A stretch of 34,497 nucleotides of DNA. Origin: Bdellovibrio sp. (GTDB lineage Bacteria > Bdellovibrionota > Bdellovibrionia > Bdellovibrionales > Bdellovibrionaceae). Below are positions 28,791 through 34,315 of the stretch, one piece after another. Every line of letters starts with the position of its first letter. Position 1 is the stretch's first letter. Both the position numbers and the translations under genes were made by a program. The stretch spans positions 1 to 34,497 of the forward strand of contig JANYDD010000040.1 in NCBI GenBank assembly GCA_025359945.1, written 5' to 3'. Under the pieces are notes generated by a model. That model did not search any database. It was not told where the DNA came from and saw only the letters and a list, made by a program, of their open reading frames with translations.

Positions 28791-28922
28791 CCTTTGGCTG
28801 GGGCAAAGTCCACGTTCTCTAAAGAAAAATTTATGCCTTGATCAAGTTGTTCCGTAAAGTTGAACAAGCCCAAATGTGGGAGATGCAACTTTAGTTCCAC
28901 TTCAGAAATTTTGGGGGGCGCC

Positions 28923-29252
28923 ATGCAAATCACCGAGGTCAAAGTTTTTCCCGTCCAGGAAGAAAGATTAAAAGCCTATGTATCAATCACTTTGGATGCC
29001 AGTTTTGTCGTTCGCGATATCAAAATTATTCAAGGCCACACCGGACTTTTTGTTGCCATGCCCAGTAAAAAGCGAAAAGACGGACAATTCCGAGACATCG
29101 CCCACCCGCTCAATCAAGAAACGCGCGCCATGATCGAAGATCAGATATTTGGGGCTTACGAAAAAGAGCTCGAGGCCCTAGGCCAGTCCGACGGACCCGT
29201 GAAGAGGCAAAAATCTCCGTCGAATAACCCTGGAGACTCGGAAAATTTCTAA
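28923..29252 (+). CDS. spoVG: SpoVG family regulator
   Basis: The 109-residue protein matches SpoVG: MQITEVKVFPVQEERLKAY, ASFVVRDIKIIQG, LFVAMPSKKRKDGQFRDIAHPL and a closing helix. SpoVG proteins bind nucleic acid and regulate gene expression, with septation effects in Bacillus; in Gram-negatives the role is poorly known. ATG 28923 has GGGGGG about five bases upstream; an in-frame extension back to 28860 was not used because the family starts here. The last 20 or so residues are a polar tail not seen in all members. Confidence 0.92.
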   Translation: MQITEVKVFPVQEERLKAYVSITLDASFVVRDIKIIQGHTGLFVAMPSKKRKDGQFRDIAHPLNQETRAMIEDQIFGAYEKELEALGQSDGPVKRQKSPSNNPGDSENF

Positions 29253-29331: not shown

Positions 29332-29407
29332 TGGGGTGTCGACAAGCTGGTAAGTTAACAGATTTTGATTCTGTCATTCGGAGGTTCGAATCCTCCCACC
29401 CCATCCA
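29332..29407 (+). tRNA. tRNA-Gln (anticodon UUG)
   Basis: The sequence folds as a tRNA: acceptor TGGGGTG pairs with CACCCCA (29397-29403), the anticodon stem ACAGA/TCTGT holds loop TTTTGAT with anticodon TTG, and the T arm is GGAGG-TTCGAAT-CCTCC. CCA is encoded (29405-29407). The discriminator base (29404) is T, whereas E. coli tRNA-Gln has G. Its 3' end borders the accessory region and could be an integration site. Confidence 0.95.
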
Positions 29408-30388: not shown

Positions 30389-30712
30389 TCATTCCACCAA
30401 CATCATCCCTCGCTTACGCTGTCCCTTCATTTTTGCCTTCTGGTTGATCTGCTCGAAGAGATGGACATACCGCTGAGTCGTCTCTTCGTCTTTGTGGCCG
30501 AGGACGTTCTTGCAAAGCGTGGTGTCCCCCAAAGCCATTCCGGCAAGTTCCGTGGCGAATGTGTGCCTCAAACAGTGCGCGGACTTCAGACGAAACTTTC
30601 CACCCAGAGCATCATAGGCCCGCTTCAGGTGCGACGCGAAGGTCCCTTTGTTCAAACCTTCGAAGATCAGGTAGTCGCGTGGATCGCCACCTTTTGGAAC
30701 GCCTCAATTTAA
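30389..30712 (-). pseudogene. Tyrosine recombinase (integrase), C-terminal remnant
   Basis: About 107 codons remain of a phage-type integrase. The C-terminal catalytic residues are visible: the HxxR block HCLRHTFATELAG and LGHKDEETTQRYVH with the nucleophilic Tyr. The first catalytic Arg and the whole N-terminal DNA-binding part are missing, and the frame is closed by a stop (TGA) just before GVPKGGDPRDY near 30712. The upstream 110 bases show no clear rest of the gene. A TTG at 30655 could start a shorter product. It points to an old insertion, perhaps at the nearby tRNA-Gln. Confidence 0.8.
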
Positions 30713-31768: not shown

Positions 31769-33853
31769 CTATAACGAAACTTTATTGTCGGGAGCAACGT
31801 TCAGGTGAGGAAGAACCGTTTCAATTACTTCTTTGAACACTGGGGCCGCGTGCTCACTTCCGTGAGGGTTTTTATCTTTCGAATTGGTCGGATCAATGAT
31901 TCCCACATATACCACAAGTCGTGGATTTTGGACCGGTGCGAATCCTACGAAGCCCGCCATAGCCCTTTCGCCTCCCAGCGAGTCGTGCTCGGGAGACTCA
32001 GGCCGATATGCCGTGCTCGTCTTTCCTGCAGTTGTATATAGCGAACTCTGGGCTGGCTTACCTGTTCCGTCTTTAACAGCGCCGACAAGCATGGTTTTCA
32101 TTTTTTGAGACGTATCTAGCGAGATAGCTTGTTTTAAGATTTTTCCGTTTGTTGTTTCATCAGCATTCATGGGCTTCATCAACTTGCCACCATTTGCAAT
32201 AGCCCCGTAGGCTTGCAAAACTTCAAGAGGAGTCGCGTAAAAGCTATGACTTGAGTTGTAACCTGTTGCGAGCAGCGGCACATATTCAGTCTCCGCCAAC
32301 TCACTGGCTTTAGGATAACGACCAGGCGCGGCCTCTGGAAATTCAGCGGCACTTCCATCAGAGCCGAAACCGAAATCCTTCAGTGATGATTCAAGTCCAT
32401 TTGATCCCAATCGTTCACCTATCTTAATTCCGCAAATATTGCTCGACTGAAAAATGGACTCAGCCGTTGTCAGCGTGCCCATTGGTTTCCAGTCTCGGTA
32501 TACTTTTCCGCCATATGTATACTTTCCGTTTTCGCAATTTAGCTTTTCATCAATTTTGATAACACCTTTCTCCAAGGCTGTTGCTGCAATCAGCGGCTTC
32601 ATGGTTGAAGCCGGCTCAATCTCATATGAAAGTGCCCAAGATTTATCTAATTTACGTTTAGCAGAAAGCTGATTTGCAACGGCGAGCACGCGACCAGTCT
32701 GAGGGTCCGCAACCAGAACAAAACCACCCTTGGCGCCAAATTTTTTCACGTACTTGGCGAGGATGCCTTCTGTTATTTTCTGAATTTCTGAGTCAAATTT
32801 CGCTAAGCCGCTGTTCGGCTTTTGATGGTTTTCTCCACGAAGCGATTTCTGAGCTCCGTAAGATAAACCAGTCGTGACAAGAACTCCGACGGTACCTAAT
32901 ACTAATCCCAAAAAGCGCTGTTTTTGGGATGTTTCATGAACTTTAAACACTTCAATTCTCCTTCTTAAAAATGATTTTAATTGTTGAGGGCCCTTAGGAC
33001 TTCCGCCCATGCAAGTGGTACCTACCTGCATAAGTGAAACCCCTCGAGCAGCCTCGGCTACTTGGACTAGACACTGACCATACTCATACGAGGAAACTCT
33101 CATCTGGCTGATAAGCGCTTCATCGCATGCGAATTCTTGAATTTCTGTAATTTCTCTTTTCCAGAGATGGATAACCGGGTTCAGGGAAAAGAGGCAGCTC
33201 AAGACCTCCATAACCAAAATCCACATTGTGTCACCGTTGCGATGGTGATGAATTTCATGTCGAACGATCAATCTGAGATTGCGAAAATTGCTGATTGCAT
33301 CCATTGGGACAACGACATTTGCGCCGCCAATCAAAGTAGAAAATGGAATTGTGACACTTTCGGAAACGAGAATTCGAATTTTTCCAATCTGTCGGACAAG
33401 AACTGCTTTACGTAGCAGGCTCGACAAACGCCACAATTGAACGCTGGTTTTTACCAATGCGAAAAGAAATCCCACTGATATCAGGATCGTGAGGATAAGC
33501 ATCAAATCGATTTCTGGATTCTGCTCGATGAGTTGCAGTGTTTGCGACTGCGTACTGGCGGCTTGAGGTGACGATTGGATTTTAGTTGTTTGAATTTCGG
33601 GTGCAAGTGTTTCCGCCAAAGGCACACGCATCTCAATTTTGAAATTTGGAACTGAATTTTGAGGAAGAAAGGAAAGTGCGACAGGAGCAAAAAGAGACGT
33701 GAAAACCAAAATCTGTGCAATCCGGTTGAAGTTAAGATACGAGATCGGAACTCTTGCTAATTCCCCGAAAAATCTCGTCGTTTTTAGAAAAAGATACATC
33801 AAGATCAGCAGCGCATTGATAGCCACATAGAATTTAACGAAGGCAATTAACAT
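31769..33853 (-). CDS. BlaR1-like sensor: M56 metallopeptidase fused to a class B PBP transpeptidase domain
   Basis: The 694-residue protein starts with transmembrane helices (about residues 5-23, 43-64, 115-135) and an M56 peptidase domain: HEIHHH with His199, Glu200 and His203, then a later acidic ligand near EFACDE (240-245). A helix at about 313-332 leads to the outside. Residues about 355-685 resemble class B PBPs (FtsI/PBP2), not the class D-like sensor of BlaR1: DPQTGRVLAVAN, EPASTMKP (Ser416, Lys419), SSN (470-472), ATPLEVLQAYGAIANGG, and AGKTSTA (611-613) where KTG is usual. It starts two bases after the repressor stop. The likely role is beta-lactam or cell-wall sensing followed by cleavage of the repressor. 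Enzyme activity of the PBP part is untested. Confidence 0.88.
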   Translation of the reverse strand: MLIAFVKFYVAINALLILMYLFLKTTRFFGELARVPISYLNFNRIAQILVFTSLFAPVALSFLPQNSVPNFKIEMRVPLAETLAPEIQTTKIQSSPQAASTQSQTLQLIEQNPEIDLMLILTILISVGFLFALVKTSVQLWRLSSLLRKAVLVRQIGKIRILVSESVTIPFSTLIGGANVVVPMDAISNFRNLRLIVRHEIHHHRNGDTMWILVMEVLSCLFSLNPVIHLWKREITEIQEFACDEALISQMRVSSYEYGQCLVQVAEAARGVSLMQVGTTCMGGSPKGPQQLKSFLRRRIEVFKVHETSQKQRFLGLVLGTVGVLVTTGLSYGAQKSLRGENHQKPNSGLAKFDSEIQKITEGILAKYVKKFGAKGGFVLVADPQTGRVLAVANQLSAKRKLDKSWALSYEIEPASTMKPLIAATALEKGVIKIDEKLNCENGKYTYGGKVYRDWKPMGTLTTAESIFQSSNICGIKIGERLGSNGLESSLKDFGFGSDGSAAEFPEAAPGRYPKASELAETEYVPLLATGYNSSHSFYATPLEVLQAYGAIANGGKLMKPMNADETTNGKILKQAISLDTSQKMKTMLVGAVKDGTGKPAQSSLYTTAGKTSTAYRPESPEHDSLGGERAMAGFVGFAPVQNPRLVVYVGIIDPTNSKDKNPHGSEHAAPVFKEVIETVLPHLNVAPDNKVSL

Positions 33854-33855
33854 CT

Positions 33856-34251
33856 TTACCCCCGCAGCCTTTCGTTGAGCAGACTTCTGATGGTTTCGAT
33901 TTCTTTTTGCGAGAGATCAGAGTTGTCGAGAAGCCGCATAACCATCGAAGTTGGGTCTCCTCCAAAAACATTTGTCTTCAAATGCTCAAGGCTGATCCTT
34001 TCGTACTCGGCTCGAGTGACAAGTGGGTTGTAGGTATGAGCGCGGTCCTTTTTCTCACTTTTCAAGGCACCCTTTTGCTCTAGAATTTTCATCATAGTCG
34101 CAACGGACGTGTAAGCGAGTTCTCGATCTTTCGGAAGCGCTTCCTGAACATCCTTGACGGTGCATTCGCCAAGATCCCAAATCGCATTCATCAGTTGCAG
34201 CTCCACTTCGGTGAAAACTTTCTCGAGCTTGGTTCGTTTCTTTTGAGCCAT
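33856..34251 (-). CDS. BlaI/MecI/CopY family repressor
   Basis: The 131-residue protein has a winged helix (FTEVELQLMNAIWDLGECTVKDV, then TSVATMMKILEQKGAL, both in part) and a C-terminal dimerisation helix region, as in BlaI and MecI. These repressors bind operator dyads as dimers and are inactivated by cleavage triggered by their BlaR1 partner. ATG 34251 has GGAGG seven bases upstream; an in-frame extension to 34269 was not used. It is the first gene of the pair with the sensor and should repress its own promoter through the dyads at 34271-34315. Confidence 0.92.
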   Translation of the reverse strand: MAQKKRTKLEKVFTEVELQLMNAIWDLGECTVKDVQEALPKDRELAYTSVATMMKILEQKGALKSEKKDRAHTYNPLVTRAEYERISLEHLKTNVFGGDPTSMVMRLLDNSDLSQKEIETIRSLLNERLRG

Positions 34252-34270
34252 TTGTGCCTCCGAATCCAAG

Positions 34271-34294
34271 CATCTACTAAAGCGTTCGTAGATG
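34271..34294. promoter_or_regulatory. Operator-like dyad 1 of the repressor
   Basis: CATCTAC (34271-34277) and GTAGATG (34288-34294) are perfect 7-bp inverted arms 10 bases apart, 20 bases before the repressor ATG. BlaI-family operators are dyads with TAC/GTA cores, which fits. The site abuts dyad 2. Confidence 0.7.
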
Positions 34295-34315
34295 TCTACT
34301 AATTTTTTAGTAGAC
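34294..34315. promoter_or_regulatory. Operator-like dyad 2 of the repressor
   Basis: GTCTACTAA (34294-34302) and TTAGTAGAC (34307-34315) are perfect 9-bp arms around TTTT. It shares one base with dyad 1 and the same CTACTA core. A possible -35 TTGCTG lies about 20 bases further right on the minus strand, with the A-rich centre of this dyad in -10 position, so repressor binding would block the promoter. Confidence 0.75.

Follow-up and report, generated by a model that had tools for sequence, protein, structure and literature searches.

The textbook receptor for penicillin, BlaR1, has been described with a class D sensor domain. Class B PBPs are genuine targets of beta-lactams, so a sensor of that type could detect these drugs by the target's own chemistry. 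In the stretch of 34,497 nucleotides analysed here, which comes from a Bdellovibrio sp. (contig JANYDD010000040.1) and is called the window as a whole, there is a two-gene operon of the BlaI–BlaR type, as seen from its architecture, catalytic residues, repressor, operators and conservation as a family (Table 1). With the BlaR1/MecR1 – BlaI/MecI systems of S. aureus and B. licheniformis it shares a repressor paired with a four-helix M56 receptor, the gluzincin motifs and catalytic residues, a C-terminal serine penicillin-recognising domain and a dyad operator. Unlike them, it has a class B PBP as the sensor of the receptor, with KTS for KTG, another operator sequence, and neither an adjoining beta-lactamase nor mecA. 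Because the protease and repressor features are present and the class D sensor is not, the receptor is not called BlaR1 in this work. A survey of BlaR homologues collected its members by the OXA domain, and the M56-PBP type would escape it for that reason (PMC9045261). No description of an M56 protein with a class B PBP or SLT domain was found in the literature searched, which lay mostly outside subscription papers and is therefore weak evidence.

Table 1. Coordinates of the receptor operon and its predicted control elements in the window.
Feature	Position	Strand	Description
M56-PBP receptor gene, 694 aa	31769..33853	-	membrane part of four helices, M56 zinc protease in the cytoplasm, class B PBP domain at the C-terminus
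Membrane and M56 protease half, residues 1-345	32819..33853	-	HExxH 199-203, E240xxxD244, Y258, R298/R299
Class B PBP transpeptidase domain, about residues 345/350-694	31772..32806	-	SxxK 416-419, SSN 470-472, KTS 611-613
GKTST (residues 610-614), variant form of the KTG motif of PBPs	32012..32026	-	
16-bp perfect inverted repeat directly past the receptor stop codon	31721..31763	.	probable terminator
blaI-type repressor gene (PF03965)	33856..34269	-	precedes the receptor gene, with 2 bases between them
Predicted operator copy 1	34295..34314	.	TCTACTAAnnnnTTAGTAGA, perfect dyad
Predicted operator copy 2	34273..34292	.	dyad with a single mismatch; spacing to copy 1, 22 bp

The preliminary description of this DNA had proposed a BlaR1-type M56 sensor fused to a class B PBP in place of the class D domain, and the fusion is real: the open reading frame was placed exactly, and the quoted motifs all lie in one frame, with HEIHH at residues 199-203, EFACDE at 240-245, PASTMK at 414-419 (Ser416 and Lys419), SSN at 470-472 and GKTST at 610-614. 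In Pfam, residues 59-271 match PF05569 (Peptidase_M56, E 2.8e-21) and residues 377-678 match PF00905 (Transpeptidase). The latter profile, which had been put forward as the check on the class of the domain, is matched over its full length (positions 1-299 of 299, E 5.7e-50) but does not tell class B apart from class D, as the class D enzyme OXA-29 also matches it (7.8e-58). The NCBIfam models do discriminate a class B PBP from class D, and the receptor scored 145 bits with SpoVD, 127 with PBP2/MrdA, 107 with the PenA-type PBP2 and 15.5 with class D. The best structures in the PDB for the PBP half were FtsI/PBP3, both by phmmer (1.5e-30) and for a profile of five relatives (6e-53). These scores indicate that the periplasmic domain of the receptor is a class B PBP, replacing the class D sensor, as had been proposed; reading it as a class D sensor is rejected on the same scores. 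A sequencing or assembly error joining two genes, which would have undone the proposal, is likewise rejected, given that independent genomes and Legionella plasmids carry this fusion too. The end-to-end transpeptidase domain is shared with the class B PBPs (FtsI/PBP3, SpoVD, PBP2), from which the receptor differs by its fusion to M56, its separate clade, its KTS/KTA motif and the lack of an FtsI N-terminus. The N-terminal pedestal typical of FtsI/PBP2 is absent as well: the M56 unit stands directly before the domain, and its last helix ends at about residue 344.

The likeness of the protease half to BlaR1, another part of the earlier proposal, is borne out by the predicted structure as well as by profile. 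Residues 1-345 were modelled with AlphaFold2 from 12 sequences at a pLDDT of 75.5, and the top six Foldseek matches of this model were all S. aureus BlaR1. Aligned with VIA-align to the cryo-EM structure of S. aureus BlaR1, the model gave a Z score of 17.9 (234 residues, 3.7 A); the BlaR1 cryo-EM chains scored 15-18, and the next entry other than BlaR1 scored 7.4. The catalytic set of BlaR1 comprises H201/E/H205, D210, E242, D246, Y261 and R293/R294 (PMC9834060). Its counterparts in the receptor, H199, E200, H203, D208, E240, D244, Y258, R298 and R299, for which the correspondence outside HExxH and ExxxD was assigned by eye, do not vary across the window protein and 10 complete relatives, nine from the phylum and one from Legionella. 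Conservation is poor in the loop that links helices 2 and 3, apart from two prolines and the glutamate E81 (10 of 13 sequences), which recalls Glu89 of BlaR1, a mimic of the beta-lactam carboxylate.

The repressor matches PF03965 with an E value of 7e-34, and, with GGAGG before it, the ATG at 34251 is its more likely start. A BlaI gene lies directly upstream of the receptor gene in all 12 loci of the phylum Bdellovibrionota with intact upstream DNA; in the genome of the window, the receptor was the only M56 protein found and its partner the only BlaI. Upstream of blaI, at 34274 and 34296, stand two dyads of the form CTACTAAn4TTAGTAG, 22 bp apart. In the 20-bp form, with at most three mismatches, 0.05 candidates would be expected by chance in the window and two were found. 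The tandem operator recurs at the other operons of the phylum (three copies in G198, a single clear one in G234, and at locus L076 a pair that has diverged further) and occurs almost nowhere else. The repressor has the Penicillinase_R winged helix, and its own promoter carries a predicted dyad operator; as far as sequence can tell, it belongs to the BlaI/MecI family. Exact operator matches in the genome of the window are limited to the two copies of the operon. A wider regulon was not found: degenerate operators (2-3 mismatches) were fewer than in the reversed control in every genome, with 11 against 29 in that of the window (G000). The output visible from these matches in this genome would thus be autoregulation, the sole clear operator being at the operon itself. 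No beta-lactamase or other conserved neighbour adjoins the operon in the loci of the phylum, nor was a class A beta-lactamase found in the genome of the window, and for these reasons a resistance output is not visible.

Nine complete relatives, with 31-44% identity from end to end, were identified among 369 genomes of the phylum (G259, G258, G229, G234, G268, G368, G276, G277 and G198), together with several cut by contig ends and one with in-frame stop codons (G357). Carriers are scattered patchily over several families, and among 100 near relatives searched only the genome of the window holds the complete fusion. In the tree of PBP domains, 15 fusions group together as a single clade (support 99/97), separate from the FtsI (100/99) and PBP2 (100/100) of the phylum. 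No single clade was resolved for the M56 domains of the PBP type. Two close pairs gave dN/dS values of 0.027 and 0.127 for the PBP half, which indicate that this domain is under purifying selection. Two remnants were also observed. The genome of the window has a decayed second copy of the PBP C-terminus (L043, contig C6, 2835-3230), 58% identical to residues 557-690 and reading AGKTSSAY, with a 3-residue deletion. In a genome of another family, a 63-aa relic (G071, contig C21, L044, 7837-8028) matches the final 53 residues of the window protein at 77% identity and hints at transfer and loss.

Among 17 members, the window included, the third active-site motif reads KTS in 5, KTA in 10 and KTG in 2, as compared with GKTGT in all 22 stand-alone FtsI inspected; KTS occurs in the PBP relic of the window's genome too. 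The preliminary description had noticed the change from Gly to Ser and suggested that it might weaken catalysis and favour sensing. The motif counts indicate that loss of the KTG glycine is a trait of the family (15 of 17), though not a universal one, and KTS or KTA may lower acylation. The architecture does not depend on the change: KTG is kept by two members from the phylum and by the Legionella proteins. The SxxK motif is kept in all relatives except L065, which has Pro for the catalytic Ser, and the SxN motif is mostly SSN, with SSD in one relative and SSF, SST or SSV in three.

Beyond the phylum, the search with the whole fusion covered plasmids, and 5 of 72,556, all of them from Legionella, encoded a protein that matched over 80% or more of the query length. 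Viral contigs were scanned for relatives of the PBP, and none was found. In the three Legionella loci that were read (L. anisa, L. hackeliae and L. longbeachae), the gene order is blaI, M56-PBP and a class D beta-lactamase, which is named OXA-29 in two of them. The domain order, the upstream BlaI and a tandem CTACTA...TAGTAG before blaI are shared with the window; the differences are the KTG motif, the downstream beta-lactamase, an operator period of 21 bp and an identity of only about 29% to the window protein. The Legionella receptors scored 100-106 bits with the PBP1A-family and SpoVD models and 14-17 with class D, carry PGSTIK or PGSLIK, SSN and GKTGT, and group weakly with the fusions of the phylum (74/63). 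On conjugative plasmids of Legionella, such a receptor adjoins a class D beta-lactamase and is annotated only as an M56 family metallopeptidase. Just upstream of the Legionella blaI, a large protein of about 1040 aa, annotated as serine hydrolase domain-containing protein, was also observed (L115, 3913-7029; L116, 3820-6933).

Other M56 proteins of the phylum, of about 540 aa, carry a C-terminal SLT lytic transglycosylase domain (eight scanned), and their M56 domains form one clade (100/99). Those at L002-L012, L016 and L034 follow a BlaI gene of their own. Like the PBP type, they combine an M56 receptor, an upstream BlaI and tandem operators mostly with a 22-bp period; unlike it, they have SLT as the periplasmic domain and the operator CAACTAAn4TTAGTTG, whose second copy is degenerate in some. 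The repressors differ consistently at two positions of the presumed recognition helix, 57 and 61, with A and K (one S) in the PBP type and S and R in the SLT type, which suggests that the two types of BlaI form two insulated circuits.

For the mechanism, S. aureus BlaR1 was taken as the model (PMC9834060), and the ligand, the acylation by a beta-lactam, the direction of the signal and the cleavage of BlaI are drawn by analogy with it. At rest, a BlaI dimer on the tandem operators would keep the operon repressed. The active site of the PBP would probably be filled by the periplasmic loop that connects helices 2 and 3, as in S. aureus BlaR1. A beta-lactam would then acylate Ser416 of the PBP domain, displacing the loop and shifting the sensor. 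The M56 zinc protease, thus freed, would cut BlaI and derepress the operon; on the Legionella plasmids, the corresponding operon includes a class D beta-lactamase (OXA-29). This sequence of acylation, BlaI cleavage and derepression is considered probable. Of the two ligands that the preliminary description had suggested, beta-lactams and wall precursors, beta-lactams are the best candidate, mainly because the Legionella operons carry blaOXA, an argument of guilt by association. Against the beta-lactam model count the operons of the phylum with no beta-lactamase neighbour, the genome of the window in which no class A beta-lactamase was found, the KTS/KTA motifs, the SSF, SST or SSV of three relatives and the Ser to Pro change in one, as well as the distance of the Legionella proteins and their weak grouping.

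Another reading, according to which the PBP domain recognises a natural ligand of the wall (stem peptide, lipid II or the state of wall synthesis) and reports wall stress, draws on these same altered KTG and SxN motifs, on the operons of the phylum without beta-lactamase neighbours, and on the sister family, where a lytic transglycosylase, no target of beta-lactams, takes the same position. It is judged unlikely, given that the Legionella relatives share their operon with a class D beta-lactamase and that SxxK and the lysine of the KT motif are almost invariant. Less probable still, and in our estimation improbable, is that the PBP domain is the output, either as an inducible membrane trap for penicillin or as an extra transpeptidase, with its level set by its own protease and repressor. 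With clear operators in these genomes only at the operon, induction would mainly yield more receptor, but BlaR1 is autoregulated too, and the degenerate active sites of several relatives are a poor fit to a transpeptidase. A decayed or accidental fusion without function, which the two C-terminal relics (G000, contig C6, and G071), the in-frame stops of G357 and the single Ser to Pro change might suggest, is highly improbable and already contradicted by selection and operator evidence, namely nine complete relatives of full gene length, conserved BlaI and operators, and a dN/dS of 0.03-0.13 in the PBP half.

A conserved family of sensors with a class B PBP means that the M56 signalling unit can take other enzymes of the wall for its sensor. 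With this family and the M56-SLT proteins, which have a distinct operator, direct tests become possible of how sensor choice and repressor specificity evolved. More tentatively, M56-BlaI circuits may constitute a wider class of wall-sensing systems for which different enzymes of peptidoglycan (class B transpeptidase, lytic transglycosylase) have been taken up as sensors in the periplasm. Each circuit would have its own insulated pair of repressor and operator and would monitor the condition of the wall in these bacteria, and the sensing of beta-lactams by BlaR1 would be a special case; this generalisation is regarded as conceivable, and rather less than an even prospect.

Some further features of the window were noted. 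A tRNA-Gln (29332-29407) is followed by the truncated C-terminus of a tyrosine recombinase (30389-30655, PF00589 positions 105-170), possibly the edge of an integrated element that could hold the blaI-M56-PBP operon. Between 30831 and 31343, close to the receptor operon and convergent with it, lies the gene of a small protein with a retropepsin-like aspartyl protease domain (PF13975, E 2.3e-06), and a SpoVG homologue (PF04026, E 2.2e-33) is encoded at 28860-29252.
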